Below, piece by piece: positions 3,375 through 43,192 of a stretch of DNA of 52,492 nt. Numbering within the stretch: position 1 is the first letter of the stretch; every line of letters starts with the position of its first letter. The notes below the pieces were generated by a model. The model had not been told where the DNA came from. It did not search any database and saw only the letters and a list, made by a program, of their open reading frames with translations. The stretch comes from a virus: IMG/VR virus record IMGVR_UViG_3300046558_000096, positions 1 to 52,492 of that record. The stretch is one strand, 5' to 3'. The position numbers and the translations under genes were made by a program.

Positions 3375-4985
3375 ATGAGCGCCCTGGACGACATGATCAC
3401 GCGCCTGGCCGGCCTGCCCGAAGCGGAACTGCGCCAGGTGGCCGCTGACACGTCCAAGGCGCTCGGCGATCTCAAGGTCAAGTGGGTGCCCAATCCGGGC
3501 CCGCAGACCGAGGCGTACTTCTGCAAGGCCGACGTGCTGCTGTATGGCGGTGAGCCGGGCGGCGGCAAGTCGCAGCTGTGCCTGGGCCTGGCCTTCAACG
3601 AGCACCAGCGCAGCGTGATCATGCGGCGCCAGTACAGCGACTTGGACCGGATTGTTGAGGACGCGCTGAAAATCCATGGCTCGCGCCAAGGCTTCAACGG
3701 CTCGCCGCCGCCCAAGCTCAAGATCAGCGACAAGCAGATCATCGACTTCGGTGCCGCCAATCGGGTGGGCGACGAGCAGGGCCAGATGGGTAAGGGGCGC
3801 GACCTGCTGTGCTTCGATGAGGCGACCCACTTCGCCGAGTCGCAGATCCGCTTCATGATGGGCTGGAACCGCACCGAGGATCCGAACCAGCGCTGCCGCG
3901 TGGTGCTGGCCACCAATCCGCCTCTGGCCGCCGAGGGCCTGTGGGTGCTCGACATGTTCGCGCCCTGGCTCAATCCGCAGTATCCGAAGCCGGCCAAGCC
4001 TGGCGAACTGCGCTGGGTGATCTCCGACGAGGAAGGCAAAGACCTGTGGGTGGACGGTCCTGACGACGAGCGCATGGTCAAGGGCAAGATGATCAAGCCC
4101 ACATCGCGCACCTACATCCCGGCGTCGGTCAAGGACAACCCGTATTACGTGGCCAGCGGCTACGAGCAGCAGCTGGACGCCATGCCCGAGCCATACCGCT
4201 CGCTGCTGATGGGCGGCTTCCGCACCGCGTTCAAGGACTTGCCGGACCAAATCATCCCGACCCGATGGGTGCAGCTGGCACAGGAGCGATGGACGCAGGA
4301 CCCGCACCCGCCGAAGAATATCCCCATGTGCACCATGGGCGTGGACGCTTCCGGCGGCGGCGACGACCCGATGATCATCGCTTCGCGCTACGACGGCTGG
4401 TTCGCGCCGCTGGTCGAGGTGGCCGGCAAGGACATCCCCATGGAGCGCGCGGGATCGTTCTGCGCTGGCGTGGTGCTGTCGCACCGCTGCGATCGGGCTC
4501 TTGTCGTGATCGACATGGGCGGCGGCTTCGGTGGCCCAATGTACGAGCACCTGTACGGTAACGCGGTCGATGTCAAGGCCTACAAGGGTGCTGAGACCAG
4601 CACGCGCCGCTCCAGCGACGGCAAGATGCATTTCACGAACAAGCGCACGGCCGCGCTGTGGGGCATGCGCGAGGCGCTCGATCCAGGCCAGCCTGGCGGC
4701 AGCCCTATCGCACTGCCACCCAGCGCCAAGTTGCTGGCCGATCTGACCGCACCGACGTTCGAGGTGACCGCCAACGGTATCAAGGCCGAGACCAAGGAGA
4801 AGGTCTGCAAGCGCCTGGGACGCTCGACCAACGAGGGCGACGCCGTGGTGATGTCGTGGTACGAGGGGCCGCGCATGCTCACTGACGCACTGGAGTGGAT
4901 GCAGCGCGCCGACAACATGGCGCCGATGACGCGCCGGCCGGTGGTGCTCAGTGGTGGGCGCCGGCCTCTTTCGGGGAAACGATGA
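3375..4985 (+). CDS. terL: Terminase large subunit
   Basis: This is the DNA-packaging motor, with an ATPase that drives DNA into the prohead and a nuclease that cuts concatemers. Visible motifs are Walker A GGEPGGGKS (residues 58-66), Walker B LLCFDEA (144-150, Asp148-Glu149) and coupling motif ATNPP (179-183). The C-terminal RNase H-like nuclease has acidic residues in VDASGG (Asp324) and VVIDMGG (Asp380), and a later GDAVVMSW near residue 496. The length of 536 residues is normal for the family. The start abuts the previous stop and the end overlaps the GNAT gene, indicating translational coupling. Confidence 0.95.
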   Translation: MSALDDMITRLAGLPEAELRQVAADTSKALGDLKVKWVPNPGPQTEAYFCKADVLLYGGEPGGGKSQLCLGLAFNEHQRSVIMRRQYSDLDRIVEDALKIHGSRQGFNGSPPPKLKISDKQIIDFGAANRVGDEQGQMGKGRDLLCFDEATHFAESQIRFMMGWNRTEDPNQRCRVVLATNPPLAAEGLWVLDMFAPWLNPQYPKPAKPGELRWVISDEEGKDLWVDGPDDERMVKGKMIKPTSRTYIPASVKDNPYYVASGYEQQLDAMPEPYRSLLMGGFRTAFKDLPDQIIPTRWVQLAQERWTQDPHPPKNIPMCTMGVDASGGGDDPMIIASRYDGWFAPLVEVAGKDIPMERAGSFCAGVVLSHRCDRALVVIDMGGGFGGPMYEHLYGNAVDVKAYKGAETSTRRSSDGKMHFTNKRTAALWGMREALDPGQPGGSPIALPPSAKLLADLTAPTFEVTANGIKAETKEKVCKRLGRSTNEGDAVVMSWYEGPRMLTDALEWMQRADNMAPMTRRPVVLSGGRRPLSGKR

Positions 4986-5928: not shown

Positions 5929-7551
5929 ATGGAAGCAAAACAACTGCTGGACGTGGCCAACATGCTGTTCGTGAAGAAGCAGCCGTTGACCACGCTGCAC
6001 CAGGAGATCGCCGAGAACTTCTATCCGGAGCGCGCCGACTTCACGCTGACGCGCTCGCTGGGTGCGGACTTCGCTGCGAACCTGATGACCTCCTATCCGG
6101 TGCTGTGCCGGCGCGACCTAGGCAACCAGTTCGGCACAATGCTGCGCCCGACCGCGAAAAGCTGGTTCCATACAGGCATCCGCCACAAGCAGATGGACAG
6201 CAACGACAACGACACCAAGCGCTATCTGGAGTGGTTCCAGGAGACGCAGCGCCGCGCGATGTACGACCCGCTGGCCATGTTCACGCGCGCCACCAAAGAG
6301 GGCGACCACGATTTCGCCGCCTTTGGTCAGTGTGCCATTTCCGTCGAACTGAACAGCCGCGCCGATGGCATGCTCTACCGCTGCTGGCACCTGCGCGATA
6401 TGTGCTGGCAGGAGAACGAGAACGGCCGGATTGGCACCATCTTCCGCCGCTGGAAGCCGACCGCGCAGGTGCTCACGCGCATCTTCAAGAAGGTCAACCA
6501 GAAGGTGCGCGAAGCGGCCGCCAAGACGCCTTTCGAAGAAATCGACGTGATGCACATGGTGGTCGAGGCCGACATGTACGATGGCGATGCCAGCGGCCGG
6601 CCGTACTGGTCGATCTGGTACGACGTATCACACGGCGAACTGATCGAGGCAACACCGATCTGGACGCAGCACTATGTCATTCCGCGCTGGCAGACCGTCA
6701 GCAACAGCCAGTACAGCTACTCGCCGGCCACCGTGGCGGCGCTGCCCGATGCGCGGCTGATCCAGGCCATGACCTACACGCTACTGGAAGCGGGAGAGAA
6801 GGCCACCAGTCCGCCGATGATCGCCACGCAGGACGCGGTGCGCTCGGATGTGGCCATCTACGCCGGCGGCATCACCTGGGTGGACAACGAGTATGACGAG
6901 CGACTGGGCGAGGCGCTGCGCCCCATCGCGCAGGACTTCCGCGGCTTTAACTATGGCCTGGAAATGGCGGCCAGCAGCCGCAGCATGATCAACGAGGCGT
7001 TCTACTTGAACACCTTGAAAATGCCAGAGCGCGCGCCGGCCATGACCGCCTACGAGGTGGGCCAGCGCGTGCAGGAGTACATCCGCCAGGCGCTGCCCAT
7101 CTTTGAGCCGATGGAAACTGAGTACAACGCCACGCTGTGCGACCACACGTTCGATCTGCTGTGGCGCAATGGCGCGTTCGGTGATCCGCGCAGCTGGCCA
7201 AAGTCGCTGCGCGGCGCCGAGATCGAGTTCAGCTTCGAGAGCCCGTTGCATGACGCCATCGAGCAACAGAAGGGCCAGAAGTTCCAGGAGGCGCAAGGAC
7301 TGATCTCGGTGGCCGTCAGCCTGGATCCGTCGTGCGCCACGGTGCCGAAGGCCGAAACGGCGCTGCGCGATGCGCTTACCGGCATCGGCGTGCCGGCCAG
7401 CTGGATGAACAGCGAGCAGTATGTGCAAGAGGCCAAGAAGGCGCAGCAGCAACAGCAGGCGCAGCAGCAGCAGCTGGCCGCGCTGGAGCAGGGTTCCAAT
7501 GTCGTCAAGAACCTGGGCCAATCGGGAGGGCTGACCAATGCAGCAGCCTAA
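5929..7551 (+). CDS. Head-to-tail connector (portal) protein, T7 gp8 type
   Basis: The 540-residue protein matches the podovirus connector family (T7 gp8-like). It has an N-terminal helical region with NFYPERADF, LMTSYP and LGNQFGTMLRP, a central domain with AFGQCAISVE and YDVSHGELIEATPIW, and a C-terminal helical region that includes NLEMAASS-like and EVGQRVQEYIRQ segments. A Gln-rich tail lies at about residues 503-523. It would form the dodecameric ring at the capsid vertex through which DNA is packaged and to which the tail attaches. It overlaps the next gene by 14 bases. Confidence 0.9.
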   Translation: MEAKQLLDVANMLFVKKQPLTTLHQEIAENFYPERADFTLTRSLGADFAANLMTSYPVLCRRDLGNQFGTMLRPTAKSWFHTGIRHKQMDSNDNDTKRYLEWFQETQRRAMYDPLAMFTRATKEGDHDFAAFGQCAISVELNSRADGMLYRCWHLRDMCWQENENGRIGTIFRRWKPTAQVLTRIFKKVNQKVREAAAKTPFEEIDVMHMVVEADMYDGDASGRPYWSIWYDVSHGELIEATPIWTQHYVIPRWQTVSNSQYSYSPATVAALPDARLIQAMTYTLLEAGEKATSPPMIATQDAVRSDVAIYAGGITWVDNEYDERLGEALRPIAQDFRGFNYGLEMAASSRSMINEAFYLNTLKMPERAPAMTAYEVGQRVQEYIRQALPIFEPMETEYNATLCDHTFDLLWRNGAFGDPRSWPKSLRGAEIEFSFESPLHDAIEQQKGQKFQEAQGLISVAVSLDPSCATVPKAETALRDALTGIGVPASWMNSEQYVQEAKKAQQQQQAQQQQLAALEQGSNVVKNLGQSGGLTNAAA

Positions 7552-12252: not shown

Positions 12253-14973
12253 ATGGCACGCCCGCTCCTCAGCCTGCTCTCGTTTAACCGTGGACTGATC
12301 GACCGGCGTGGCCTGGCGCGAGTGGACATCAAGCGCACGGCGCTGTCCGCGCAGATCATGACCAACTGGATGCCGCGCGTGCTGGGCTCCATGTCGATCC
12401 GGCCCGGTCTGAAGTATATCGGCGCCACGCTGGGCAATGCGGCCGCGCGCTTCCTGCCGTTTGTTTTTTCCACCACCGATACGGCGCTGATCGAATTTAC
12501 CAATACCGTCTTTCGCGTGTGGGTAGCCGATGCGCTGGTCACGCGCGTGGCTGTTGCCACCACCGTCACGAACGGGACATTTCCTACGGATCTGTCTGGC
12601 TGGACCGACAACAGCACGCTTGGTGGCGTGACTACATGGTCGGCACCGAATTTCATGCAGCTGGTCAGCGATGGCACAGCAACCGCTATCCGCGATCAGC
12701 AGGTGTCGGTATCCGGCGCCGACATCAACAAGGAACATGCACTGCGCATCGTGATCGCGCGCGGCCCGGTGACGCTGCGCGTTGGCTCGGCGCTAGGCGA
12801 CGATAGCTACATCAGCGAGACGGTGCTGAACACCGGCACCCATTCGCTGGCCTTGATCCCTGGTGGCAACATCTTCATCCGTTTCCTGTCCCAACAAATT
12901 CCGAAGGTATGGGTGAGCCAGTGCACGATTGAGGCGGCCGGCGTGATGTCGCTGCCCACGCCCTACCTAAGCACGGACCTGGGCGCTATCCGCAGCGACC
13001 AGTCGGCAGACGTACTGTTCATCGCCTGCTTTGGCTACCAGCAGCGCCGGATTGAGCGCCGCGGCAAACATTCGTGGTCCATCGTTGCCTATACCGCGCC
13101 AGATGGTCCCTTCCGCGTGCAGAACACCACCAACAATACGCTCGCGTCCAGCGGGTTGACCGGCAATGTCACGCTGACCGCATCCGTACCCACCTTCAAG
13201 GCGACCCATGTCGGCGCGATATTCAGCCTGACATCGAATGGACAGAACGTGTTTAGAAGTATCTCCGCGCAAAACGTGTGGAGCAATCCGATTGCCGTTA
13301 CCGGCACCAGCTTTGACCGCAATGTCGCCATCGGGATCAGTGGCACCTTCGTAGCGACCGTATCGCTGCAGCGATCCATCGGCTCGGATGCTGGTCCGTG
13401 GGTGGACCTGGCGACACCGACCTGGACAACCGAGATAGCCGCCAGCTTTAACGACACCCTCAACAACCAACTGATCTACTACCGGATCGGCATCAAGACC
13501 GGCAATTACACCAGCGGCACGGCGGACGTTGCGATGTCAATCGCCACTGGTTCAATCACTGGCGTGGCGCGTGTGACGGATTTCACGTCGAGCACGGTGG
13601 TGTCTGCCGAAGTTCTCACCGCCTTTGGTGCCAACTCTGGCGCTACTGTTGATTGGGCCGAGGGGGCCTGGTCTGATGCCCGCGGCTGGCCGAGCAGCGT
13701 GGCCTTCCATGAGGGGCGTTTGTGGTGGGCTGGCAAGGGCAACGTGTGGGCATCGATATCGGATGCCTACAACAGTTTCGACGCCAATCTGGTGGGCGAC
13801 GCCGGTACGATTTCACGCTCCATAGGCTCTGGCCCGGTGGATACGATCAACTGGCTCATGAGCCTGCAGCGCCTGATGATGGGCGCGCAAGGGTCCGAGT
13901 TCACGATTTCATCGACCGCATTGGGCGAGACGGTCACGCCCACCAATTTCAACCTCCGCGCCGGCAGCACGCAGGGCAGTGGCGGCATCCGCCCGGTGAA
14001 GGTGGATCAGCATGGCGTGTTCGTCAATCGCACTGGCATCCGGGTGTTTGAGCTGGCCGCCGGCAGCAACTACCCGTTCTATGACTACGTGGCCAGCGAC
14101 ATGATGGCGGTAGTCCCGGAACTGGGCCGTCCCGGTATCGTGCGCCTGGATGTGCAGCGCCAGCCGGATACGCGCATTCATTGCGTGCGCTCTGACGGCG
14201 TTGCCATCGTGGCCGTGTCCGATAAGGACGAGGATGTTCTGGCATGGGTGCAGGTGCAGACGGATGGCGTGATCGAGGACGTGGTAACGTTGCCGGCTTT
14301 GGTCGGCGATATTGACGATCAGGTCTACTACGTCGTGAACCGCACCATCAATGGTTCCACCGTGCGTTATCTGGAGAAGTGGGCGCAGGAGATCAACTGC
14401 CGCGGCGACCAGGCGCTGTGCGATCTGGCCGACTCCTACATAAGTCAGACCTTCGGCAGCCCGGTTACGGTGGTCACCGGCCTGGGCACGCTGGAAGGCC
14501 GCCAGGTGGTCGTGTGGGCCGATGGTGCCGATGTTGGCACCGACGACAGCGTGACGCCCTGGGTGCAGCGTTACACCGTATCCGGCGGCCAGATCACACT
14601 GGCAGCGCCGGCCACGAATATTGTGGTCGGGCTAGCCTATACGGCGCAGTTCCAGAGCACCAAGCTGGGCGAGGCCACGCAGGATGTACCGAGCCCGCTC
14701 AACGCGCAGAAGAAAATCAACCATCTGGGCCTGATCATGGCCGATGTGCACACCAAGGGCGTGCGCTACGGCGCCGACTTCGATCACCTGGACGACCTGC
14801 CCAGCCACATCAACGGCGTGGATACCGGCCAGCTGGTGCTCGCCGACTACGACGAGAACCCAAGCGAATTCCCCGGCATCTGGGACACCGATTCACGGCT
14901 TTGCCTGCAGGCGCAGGCACCGCGCCCCTGCACGATGCTGGCCGCCACGCTGGACATGGAGCAATACAAGTGA
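12253..14973 (+). CDS. Tail tubular protein B (T7 gp12-like nozzle)
   Basis: The 906-residue protein starts with the typical nozzle N-terminus: FNRGLIDRRGLARVD, MTNWMPRVLGSMSIRPGLKYIG (RPG motif near residue 50) and FVFSTTDTALIEF. It also has RLWWAGKGNVWASISDAYNSFD and LMSLQRLMMGAQGSEFTIS further on, matching beta-propeller segments of gp12. It forms the lower tail through which DNA leaves. It is somewhat longer than T7 gp12 (about 794 aa), owing to an extra Ig-like/beta insert near residues 290-430. Confidence 0.88.
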   Translation: MARPLLSLLSFNRGLIDRRGLARVDIKRTALSAQIMTNWMPRVLGSMSIRPGLKYIGATLGNAAARFLPFVFSTTDTALIEFTNTVFRVWVADALVTRVAVATTVTNGTFPTDLSGWTDNSTLGGVTTWSAPNFMQLVSDGTATAIRDQQVSVSGADINKEHALRIVIARGPVTLRVGSALGDDSYISETVLNTGTHSLALIPGGNIFIRFLSQQIPKVWVSQCTIEAAGVMSLPTPYLSTDLGAIRSDQSADVLFIACFGYQQRRIERRGKHSWSIVAYTAPDGPFRVQNTTNNTLASSGLTGNVTLTASVPTFKATHVGAIFSLTSNGQNVFRSISAQNVWSNPIAVTGTSFDRNVAIGISGTFVATVSLQRSIGSDAGPWVDLATPTWTTEIAASFNDTLNNQLIYYRIGIKTGNYTSGTADVAMSIATGSITGVARVTDFTSSTVVSAEVLTAFGANSGATVDWAEGAWSDARGWPSSVAFHEGRLWWAGKGNVWASISDAYNSFDANLVGDAGTISRSIGSGPVDTINWLMSLQRLMMGAQGSEFTISSTALGETVTPTNFNLRAGSTQGSGGIRPVKVDQHGVFVNRTGIRVFELAAGSNYPFYDYVASDMMAVVPELGRPGIVRLDVQRQPDTRIHCVRSDGVAIVAVSDKDEDVLAWVQVQTDGVIEDVVTLPALVGDIDDQVYYVVNRTINGSTVRYLEKWAQEINCRGDQALCDLADSYISQTFGSPVTVVTGLGTLEGRQVVVWADGADVGTDDSVTPWVQRYTVSGGQITLAAPATNIVVGLAYTAQFQSTKLGEATQDVPSPLNAQKKINHLGLIMADVHTKGVRYGADFDHLDDLPSHINGVDTGQLVLADYDENPSEFPGIWDTDSRLCLQAQAPRPCTMLAATLDMEQYK

Positions 14974-41153: not shown

Positions 41154-41548
41154 AACGCACCGCCCTCCGCCCGAGCAGCAAGCCCATGGCGCGCGCCGCG
41201 TTCAAGCCAGCGGCCGAGCGTAAGCCGATGAAGTCGCGTGGCCCGCACATGACGCCGATCCGCAAGTCGGCAAAGAACCAGGACTGCACGCTGCGCATCC
41301 CCGGCGTGTGCAATTACAACCCGGAAACGACGGTGCTGTGCCACTCGCCGTTTCTGGAATCCGGGCGCGGCATGGGCCTGAAGGCGCCGGACGACGAGGC
41401 GTGCTTCGGTTGCAGTGCATGCCACGACGTTCTCGACCGGCGCGTGCCCTGGCCATCCTGGCTGACGCCGTTCAAGCTGGAGGGCGCGTTCATCCGGGCG
41501 CGCAATCTGACCCATGAAATTTTGAAGAAGAAAGGGCTCATTCCATGA
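41150..41548 (+). CDS. YbcO-like putative nuclease (DUF1364)
   Basis: The ATG at 41150 overlaps the methyltransferase stop. The 132-residue protein has a basic N-terminus and the YbcO pattern: QDCTLRIPGVCNYNPETTVLCH (Cys46, Cys54, His65, given here in part), then CFGCSACHDVLDRR (Cys88, Cys91, His92). This family has an HNH-like zinc fold and is thought to be a nuclease acting near recombination genes. It lies just before RusA, as in lambdoid phages. Confidence 0.75.
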   Translation: MKRTALRPSSKPMARAAFKPAAERKPMKSRGPHMTPIRKSAKNQDCTLRIPGVCNYNPETTVLCHSPFLESGRGMGLKAPDDEACFGCSACHDVLDRRVPWPSWLTPFKLEGAFIRARNLTHEILKKKGLIP

Positions 41549-42018
41549 CCGTGACGCTGCGACTTCCCTATCCCATATCTGCGAATCGCTACTGGGCTAC
41601 GCGCACCGTCACGCCGAAGGGTGGACGCGCCATGGCGATGACCTACGTGACGCCAGAGGCCAAGGCGTTTAAGGCCGAGGTGCAGCGCATCGCTCGTATT
41701 GCTGGCGTGTGCGCGCCGATCCTGGGCCGGGTGCAACTGGAAATCTGGCTGTACCCGCACCGGCCGCAGGACTGGCAGAAGCGCCAGCGCCAGCTTGGCG
41801 CGAGCTGGGACGAAAGCGTGCAGTGCATCGACCTGGACAACGCCACCAAGGTGCTGCTGGACGCCATGAAGGATGTGGTTATGGCCGACGACAAGTTCGT
41901 TTTCCGCATCGCCAGCCAGCGCATGGAGCCAGACGACCAGCCGGCGCGCGTGGTGGTGCGCGTGACGCCGATTGCAGTGAAGCAGCCGCAGGCCGATCTG
42001 CTGGACGCCACGCAGTGA
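41545..42018 (+). CDS. rusA: RusA-type Holliday junction resolvase
   Basis: The 157-residue protein opens with LRLPYPISANRYW and has CIDLDNATKVLLDAMKD (Asp96, Asp98, Asn99, Lys102, Asp106) followed by MADDKFV, the acidic catalytic cluster of RusA. It resolves four-way junctions formed during recombination and replication. It is slightly longer than E. coli RusA (120 aa). It overlaps the YbcO-like gene by 4 bases. Confidence 0.88.
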   Translation: MTVTLRLPYPISANRYWATRTVTPKGGRAMAMTYVTPEAKAFKAEVQRIARIAGVCAPILGRVQLEIWLYPHRPQDWQKRQRQLGASWDESVQCIDLDNATKVLLDAMKDVVMADDKFVFRIASQRMEPDDQPARVVVRVTPIAVKQPQADLLDATQ

Positions 42019-42104: not shown

Positions 42105-42133
42105 TTGACATTCTGAAACTTCCACATGAAAAT
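42105..42133 (+). promoter_or_regulatory. Strong sigma70-like promoter of the small RNA
   Basis: A perfect TTGACA (42105-42110), a 17-bp spacer and GAAAAT (42128-42133). The preceding 30 bases are A+T-rich (UP-element-like). Transcription should start near 42140, right at the first hairpin of the downstream RNA. Confidence 0.75.
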
Positions 42134-42138
42134 ACGTC

Positions 42139-42257
42139 TTGCCTTGGCGGGCAGAAATAAATACCACAAAGGCTTCAAATGCATCGTGCCAGGTTCTGTG
42201 GTCCTGGTCCGCCAACACCCCGTAAAGGGTGACGGTGCATTTGAGGCCTTTTTTTTC
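42139..42257 (+). ncRNA. Putative small structured RNA: hairpin plus three-way junction ending in a terminator
   Basis: There is no protein gene in 42019-42283. The predicted RNA begins with a hairpin TGCC/GGCA (42140-42143 with 42150-42153, loop TTGGCG). Then P1, 20 bp with two G-U pairs, joins 42168-42187 to 42232-42251. Inside it are P2 (CCAGG 42189-42193 with CCTGG 42203-42207) and P3 (CACCC 42216-42220 with GGGTG 42227-42231). The joining strand CGCCAA (42210-42215) is fully complementary to the first loop, a likely pseudoknot. P1 is followed by eight T. It is an independent sRNA or an attenuator of the replication gene; no known family recognised. Confidence 0.65.
42168..42256 (+). terminator. 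Intrinsic terminator formed by the RNA's outer stem
   Basis: The 20-bp outer stem (P1) closes directly before a run of T (42249-42256). The branched interior makes it an unusual terminator. If it works constitutively, the downstream gene needs read-through or another promoter. Confidence 0.65.
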
Positions 42258-42283
42258 GCTTAAAAATAGGCCCAAAAAACGCC

Positions 42284-43192
42284 ATGAATTACTACAGTCA
42301 TCACATCGGGGACTTTGACCGCGCCACGCGGCACCTGACCCGCATCGAACGCAGCATTTATCGTGATCTGATGGACGTGTACTACGACACCGAGCAGCCG
42401 TTGACCTCTGATGTCGCCGTGCTGTGTCGCAAAATCGTTGCGCGCAGCGAAGAGGAAAAGGCGGCCGTGATCGGCATACTTGATGAATTTTTCATCACCA
42501 CGCCTTCCGGTTGGTATCACGAGCGCTGCGAACAAGAGTTGGATTCCTACCGCAAAACTAACTCGCAAAAGTCAGCGGCTGGCAAAGCTTCGGCCGCCGC
42601 CCGTGCAGCGCGCCTTCAAGGACTGATCAACAGCACTTCAACGGCTGTTCCAACGGCTGTTCAACTAACCAATAACCAAGAACCAATAACCAAGAACCAT
42701 AAACCAAGAACCATAAACCAAGAACCAGAACCCAACCAAGTTCAAGAACAACCCCAACAGCAACCCCATTCCGACGCCGTGCCGGCTTCGGCCCCGCAAA
42801 AACGGACTCGCAAACCGGCCAAGGCCGAGCCGGGAACCGGCAAGGTGTGGGTTGCCTACGCCACGGCCTACTGGAACCGCTACGGTGTCGAGCCTGTTCG
42901 CAACGCCATGGTCAACGGCCAGCTGTCGAACCTGGTCAAGCGCATTGGCCTGGACGATGCCGAGCATGTGGCGGCGTTTTTCGTCGGACACCAGCACCGC
43001 TTCTACGTCGAGAAAATGCATGCAGTCGGGCTGATGCTGGCCGACTGCGAGAAGCTACGCACCGAGTGGGCGACCAGCACGCAGATGACGAACACCAGGG
43101 CCGTGCAGCAGGACCGCACGCAAACGAATTTCGACGCCTTCGCACCGCTGATCGCGGAAGCGCGGGCAAGGGAAGCAGAAAATGCCAACTGA
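42284..43192 (+). CDS. DUF1376 replication protein (origin-binding initiator-like)
   Basis: The 302-residue protein has the DUF1376/YdaU N-terminal domain (MNYYSHHIGDFDRATRHL, RIERSIYRDLMDVYYDTE, GWYHERCEQEL; residues 1-90), a Gln/Asn/Pro-rich linker, and a C-terminal helical domain (KVWVAYATAYWNRYGVEPVRNAMV). Such proteins act as phage replication initiators. The linker DNA carries four 14-bp tandem repeats, as in lambda O with its iterons. The ribosome site is weak (AGG 42268, 13 bases away), and the upstream RNA may control translation. Confidence 0.7.
   Translation: MNYYSHHIGDFDRATRHLTRIERSIYRDLMDVYYDTEQPLTSDVAVLCRKIVARSEEEKAAVIGILDEFFITTPSGWYHERCEQELDSYRKTNSQKSAAGKASAAARAARLQGLINSTSTAVPTAVQLTNNQEPITKNHKPRTINQEPEPNQVQEQPQQQPHSDAVPASAPQKRTRKPAKAEPGTGKVWVAYATAYWNRYGVEPVRNAMVNGQLSNLVKRIGLDDAEHVAAFFVGHQHRFYVEKMHAVGLMLADCEKLRTEWATSTQMTNTRAVQQDRTQTNFDAFAPLIAEARAREAENAN
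42669..42724. repeat. Four 14-bp iterons, candidate replication origin
   Basis: CCAATAACCAAGAA occurs at 42669 and 42683, and CCATAAACCAAGAA at 42697 and 42711. A fifth, degenerate copy begins at 42725. The period is exactly 14 bp, which is not a multiple of three, so the encoded peptide is not itself a repeat. The selection is therefore on DNA. The tract is A+T-rich within a GC-rich gene. Confidence 0.65.

Follow-up and report, generated by a model that had tools for sequence, protein, structure and literature searches.

Among the phage RNAs that affect transcription termination is the structured put RNA of HK022. In type III toxin-antitoxin systems, a promoter, the pseudoknotted ToxI antitoxin RNA and a terminator precede a gene. 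The terminators of the crcB/fluoride and pfl/ZTP riboswitches often overlap the motif (PMC2864571). The element described here is found in IMG/VR virus record IMGVR_UViG_3300046558_000096, of which positions 1 to 52,492 were analysed; this whole stretch of 52,492 nucleotides (nt) is called the window below. The element is a predicted RNA of about 117 nt (42140-42256) and is a member of an RNA family for which no earlier description was found. More than 60 distinct homolog sequences were collected, nearly all in phages with few other genes in common, and all four stems of the RNA as well as two long-range pairings, here named PK1 and PK2, covary across them. From the folds as modelled and the genes that follow, it is fairly probable that the element acts in cis as an attenuator of transcription, serving replication, recombination and HNH genes. 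The features are listed below; for the hairpins P2 and P3 the arms are given by the last three digits of their positions.

42105-42110, +: -35 box TTGACA, read from the sequence; homologs, too, have TTGACA or TTGCAA at this distance of 17 nt
42128-42133, +: -10 box GAAAAT, after a 17-nt spacer
42140-42153, +: first hairpin H0, TGCC (42140-42143) with GGCA (42150-42153), loop TTGGCG; predicted 5' end of the transcript
42144-42150, +: 5' strand of PK1, TTGGCGG, in the H0 loop; own-partner match and covariation
42163-42168, +: 5' strand of PK2, ACCACA; own-partner match against swapped partners
42168-42187, +: 5' strand of P1, the terminator stem; in the alternative fold its inner part serves as loop 1
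42188-42208, +: P2 hairpin GCCAGG-TTCTGTGGT-CCTGGT (188-193/203-208), closed by the G-U pair 188/208
42197-42202, +: 3' strand of PK2, TGTGGT, in the P2 loop; own-partner match against swapped partners
42209-42215, +: 3' strand of PK1, CCGCCAA, in the junction; own-partner match and covariation
42216-42231, +: P3 hairpin CACCC-CGTAAA-GGGTG (216-220/227-231); fold and covariation
42232-42251, +: 3' strand of P1; fold and covariation
42249-42256, +: U-tract of the intrinsic terminator, eight T, three of them counted within the P1 stem
42284-43192, +: downstream gene, DUF1376 / primosomal, O-like replication initiation protein (PF07120, E 1.1e-28)
41545-42018, +: upstream gene, RusA resolvase (protein match), given as context

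The named stems are supported beyond every shuffle and every slid register, with 15 members and again with 56. The latter make up alignment A3, which was aligned with the covariance model R1 and is the basis of all counts out of 56. In A3 the paired cells amount to 96.1%, as compared with 69.8% after shuffling, changes on both sides are found in 25 of the 32 pairs, and the covariation score is 0.644 against 0.144, with 0 of 500 shuffles reaching it. Compensation is seen in 13 of the 14 modelled pairs of P1 and in 4 of 4 in P3, and H0 displays compensatory changes in two of its three pairs. PK1 keeps a UUGG/CCAA core, while each of its other two modelled positions has at least three pair types. 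An initial annotation of this DNA had named beforehand, as what might refute it, homologs in which the stems are neither conserved nor compensated; all four stems and the loop-junction pairing turned out to be conserved or compensated. Its opinion that the agreement between the parts goes beyond chance is likewise borne out by the more than 60 covarying homologs and the outcome of the 500 shuffles.

Both long-range pairings match their own partner better than a swapped one. For PK1 the mean is 6.82 Watson-Crick pairs with the own partner and 4.65 when swapped, the best of 200 shuffles giving 5.09, and the corresponding values for PK2 are 6.16, 3.62 and 4.30. PK2 joins the linker after H0 to the P2 loop, and is present even in members of largely different sequence. 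The distance from the end of its 5' strand to P2 is 17-19 nt in all 56 members, and the strand overlaps P1 in 52 of them. The two pairings are nested, each of them crosses P1, and together they loop out the 5' arm of the terminator stem. The invariant bases are mostly found within pairs (UUGG/CCAA, G-U and U-A), part of them being fixed by the collection patterns described below. The last U-A pair of P1 and the first G-U pair of P2 are present in 56 of 56, where the G-U pair is partly imposed by pattern 2 and not by pattern 1.

A mismatch inside P1 (CACAUG/CAGGUG, A opposite G; A3 columns 42/116) occurs in up to 36 of the 56 members, the others pairing normally, and is possibly the site of a protein or tertiary contact. 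A tRNA-like reading, with P2 as a T-arm-like hairpin and PK1 as a 7-bp 'acceptor', was discarded, as the P2 loop covaries freely with the linker and there is neither a conserved CCA end nor other tRNA elements.

In the window P1 comprises 20 base pairs (bp), two of them G-U (42168-42187 with 42232-42251), and this outer stem plus the eight T form a predicted built-in terminator, as the initial annotation had proposed. Every sequence element named there is found where it was placed, and some of the details are here revised. Both inner hairpins exist, but with joining lengths of 0, 7 and 0 rather than 1, 8 and 0, because the conserved G-U pair 188/208 closes the first of them, P2. The proposed pairing between the H0 loop and the junction covaries, but extends to 7 bp (TTGGCGG 42144-42150 with CCGCCAA 42209-42215), one base being shared with H0. 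The second long-range pairing, PK2 (ACCACA/TGTGGT), had been overlooked. The promoter has the TTGACA, the 17-nt spacer and the GAAAAT ascribed to it, but taken alone in the window it is not significant (one seen, 0.7 expected by chance) and becomes so only across the family. The plus strand folds with -51.8 kcal/mol, as compared with -33.7 +/- 3.5 kcal/mol for shuffled sequences (z-score -5.2, 0 of 200). An RNA from the minus strand was rejected, since its fold is weaker (z-score -3.5) and it has no U-tract. A protein-coding reading was also rejected: the open reading frame of 45 amino acids at 42126-42263 has no Pfam match, and any given frame is open in only 10-16 of the 56 homologs.

The first homologs were obtained by fetching relatives of the downstream DUF1376 protein and inspecting the regions upstream of their genes. 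The loci L002 and L008 have the same architecture directly upstream of the DUF1376 relative, the outer stem being changed and the GCCTTGGCGGGC ... CCGCCAA pair unchanged. Pattern 1, built on this pair, was run over viral contigs, where about 20 of its 52 matches were true members. With R1, second copies with a different loop-junction pair were found in two of these phages. It also found a single copy in a bacterial genome, where the gene that follows is once more of the DUF1376 type. Pattern 2 was built from the divergent second copies and added about 40 more members, and a later covariance model, R2, added copies in further viral records. By BLAST and R2 the element was found in the cultured Burkholderia phages BcepMigl, BcepIL02, DC1 and CSP3, and in two Manatee Spring phage records. 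A structural descriptor matched 26 places against 0 in reversed sequence, and a relaxed one 71 against 8. Since patterns 1 and 2 fix parts of PK1 or P2, invariance at these bases should not be over-read. The members collected without patterns do agree with the rest; these are L002 and L008 (found by protein), the second copies in L101 and L056 together with L248 (found by model), and the Manatee and Lessievirus copies (found by BLAST). A pattern of the exact P1 strand gave no matches, because the sequence of P1 changes.

Searches of Rfam 15 at gathering and relaxed thresholds gave nothing at the gathering score and nothing with E<1 at the element, in keeping with the earlier claim of a previously unnoticed RNA. 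No description of it was found in the openly licensed papers searched, a 2017 catalogue of 224 candidate RNAs not being covered. Using strict filters, a survey of 399 Burkholderiales genomes gave one match at E <= 0.01, and there was none in 398 Pseudomonadota genomes or in 369 genomes of a proteobacterial class; with that restriction on the filters, the nearly empty surveys indicate that the element is essentially a phage one.

Some loci carry the element twice, before different genes and with different PK1 and PK2 sequences. These are L101, with copies at 7022-7119 (-) and 12578-12673 (+), and L056, with copies at 2216-2310 and 4031-4130. A more divergent candidate is situated before a DUF1376 gene at about 2400-2490 of L010, with PK1 as TCAGACC/GGTCTGA, PK2 as TAACC/GGTTA and no P3. 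It was found by protein and fits the layout by eye, while R2 gives no match, and the family may therefore reach beyond the models. At L403:817-1059 (-), in MW202462.1, a hypothetical protein (UOF77143.1) is annotated over the RNA on the opposite strand; the gene call is probably spurious.

Of the 56 homologs, 43 have a -10-like hexamer whose end is 4-9 nt upstream of the outermost H0 pair, a count that drops to 7-13 in control stretches, and TTGACA or TTGCAA is often found 17 nt upstream of this box. This placement supports the earlier proposal that the RNA is folded from its first base. The predicted intrinsic terminator follows the promoter and comes just ahead of the gene's ribosome-binding site, and in nearly every homolog the U-tract directly precedes the ribosome-binding site of a gene on the same strand. 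The start codon is found a median of 13 nt past the U-tract (59 loci with an assigned start), and in 54 of these 59 there is a GG-rich motif in between. The downstream gene matches DUF1376 (Pfam) in 18 of 57 cases and primosomal PHROGs in about 20; others encode O-like or DnaD-like replication proteins, RecT/ERF annealing proteins, HNH endonucleases or antirepressors. These are early functions. Apart from the related trio G009/G011/G015 and the pair formed by the window record and G007, the 14 carrier phages that were compared have few genes in common. When a shared phage partner gene was sought among them, no gene was common to all and no family occurred in more than 8 of the 14, so a required phage-encoded partner is unlikely.

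An early fold, then a terminator and then a ribosome-binding site is the order expected of an attenuator. From the computed family, folds, covariation, promoter position and gene adjacency we infer a folding order, read-through, and tuning by some host or cellular signal. The locus would be a self-contained early-gene leader consisting of a sigma-70 promoter, a switch RNA, an intrinsic terminator, a ribosome-binding site and the gene. Transcription would start at the first base of H0, and H0 and P2 would be the first structures to form in the emerging RNA. PK2 would then arise between the linker and the loop of P2, and PK1 between the loop of H0 and the junction, whereby the 5' arm of what is to become the terminator stem would be looped out. 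Once the 3' strand of P1 has emerged it could invade this fold and form an 18-20 bp P1 beside the U-tract, in which case transcription would end and leave an RNA of about 117 nt. The replication gene would be expressed if the fold with PK1 and PK2 lasts long enough for the polymerase to clear the U-tract. Read-through would thus be set by the lifetime of the early fold, as in a transcription attenuator.

Folding predictions were made for both stages. For a chain without the 3' strand of P1, the probability of PK1 is above 0.5 in 55 of 56 members and that of PK2 in 28, while for the full RNA the P1 terminator wins in 54. The junction is complete at nt 68 or so, and the 3' strand of P1 begins only around nt 83, which would give the early fold a head start. 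PK2 and a complete P1 are, by geometry, mutually exclusive, since the P2 loop would then sit at the far end of a helix of 18-20 bp. In the initial annotation the loop-junction pairing would lock a pseudoknot within the terminator fold; the evidence rather favours a helix belonging to an earlier-forming, competing alternative fold.

Several observations weigh against the attenuator. Only PK2 is clearly incompatible with P1; PK1, with a linker of about 13 nt that could span it, might be present together with P1 and make a true pseudoknot. PK2 and P2 are competitors in the nested folding model, where the probability of PK2 exceeds 0.5 in only half of the members. P1 has a median of -29 kcal/mol and is thus far more stable than PK1 (about -9) and PK2 (about -6), which means that read-through could only come about kinetically or with assistance. 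Unpaired conserved bases seem to be few, which would argue against a classical ligand pocket. BcepMigl is without an obvious -10 box just before H0, and in the window the start codon is found 27 nt past the U-tract, farther than in most homologs.

The initial annotation had left the choice between a small RNA (sRNA) and a ligand-controlled attenuator, and of these the cis attenuator, whether or not a ligand controls it, is now much better supported than the free sRNA, because the U-tract directly precedes the ribosome-binding site of a same-strand gene. An sRNA acting in trans on a host or phage target, with the downstream gene served by another promoter or by read-through, would account for the promoter, the compact stable fold and the terminator, and a discrete RNA of about 117 nt is expected whenever P1 forms. 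Such an RNA has no need of the short distance to the start codon or of sharing a strand with the gene, and it would lack a free conserved seed, as the most conserved stretches pair inside the molecule; we regard it as unlikely. Slightly less likely still is a passive 5' leader, where the 5' hairpin and the pseudoknots shield the end of the mRNA and insulate the ribosome-binding site, and a leaky terminator sets a low, unregulated level. That the RNA begins inside a hairpin, that the ribosome-binding site follows immediately after stem and U-tract, and that the carriers share no phage partner gene all fit a passive leader, but a passive terminator needs neither two long-range pairings with strict own-partner covariation nor their constant spacing.

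PK2 cannot form within one molecule once P1 is complete, and its spacing is nearly constant; both would fit if PK2 (and PK1) joined copies into a dimer or ring with a geometry fixed by the constant length of P1, an arrangement like that of RNA-only assemblies or phage packaging RNA. With its median of 6 nt and 85% A/U, the linker is however suited to double pairing within one molecule, PK1 plus PK2 is what a single nascent chain is predicted to fold into, and the element is situated before early genes and rarely near terminase, making intermolecular pairing very improbable. A chance neighbourhood of promoter, hairpin and terminator, for which nothing speaks except the weak significance of the window promoter taken alone, is refuted by the covariation, the shuffles and the descriptor counts, and can practically be dismissed. 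It is conceivable, though doubtful, that the element is a phage-specific riboswitch-like RNA, whose fold with two long-range pairings senses a host metabolite, ion or factor and by antitermination decides the expression of replication, recombination or homing-endonuclease genes. The signal would in that case be host-derived, because the carrier phages have no gene in common.

A covariation-backed RNA family absent from Rfam is thus found immediately ahead of replication and recombination genes, in phages that have few other genes in common. If it does act as an attenuator, many phages would time their early genes by an RNA that needs no phage protein, and a host signal for phage replication would become directly testable. 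The element might also find use as a compact and portable expression switch.

Other structured leaders were seen as well. A related but different one precedes an HNH gene at L087:3445-3533 (-) and L348:8221-8309 (-). It combines a terminator stem (about 20 bp) with two further pairings, one of 12 bp upstream (GGATCGACGGCT/AGCCGTCGATCC in L087) and an outer one of 6 bp (GAAGGC/GCCTTC). The logic of two folds is the same, but the antiterminator helices are longer. A leader of this type is also present in G009, in addition to two copies of the main element. In L012, L015, L022, L023, L028 and L029 a seemingly conserved structured leader is located about 110 bases before locus position 2501, ahead of DUF1376 genes. 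This leader has long hairpins (e.g. GTCCTTGGGCGGAC ... GTCCACCCAAGGAC) and no U-tract, and is possibly a separate RNA element.

When it comes to known systems, C4 antisense RNA (RF01695) is a phage RNA too, about equally long and with several stems, but its covariance model does not match the element, which is moreover found with replication and recombination genes and not with ant alone. The Polynucleobacter-1 RNA (RF01718) is likewise a cis-regulatory candidate from freshwater bacteria/Burkholderiales; its model gave nothing above the cut-off in nine carrier records and nothing at the element. Unlike ToxI, the element is a single unit instead of tandem repeats, and the genes downstream are not ToxN-like. 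The put RNA of HK022 is not known to have a built-in terminator or a promoter at its first base, and its fold is unlike that of the element. The crcB and pfl riboswitches differ in sequence and topology; the element is phage-specific, with its promoter at the first base, no identified ligand or aptamer core and no Rfam match. Computation indicates a mutually exclusive antiterminator pairing kept by covariation, although the exclusion of P1 by PK1 is not certain. The element thereby resembles the attenuators and riboswitches with an overlapping terminator: a leader RNA before a gene has two mutually exclusive folds, one being a terminator with its U-tract before the ribosome-binding site and the other containing a pseudoknot-type pairing.
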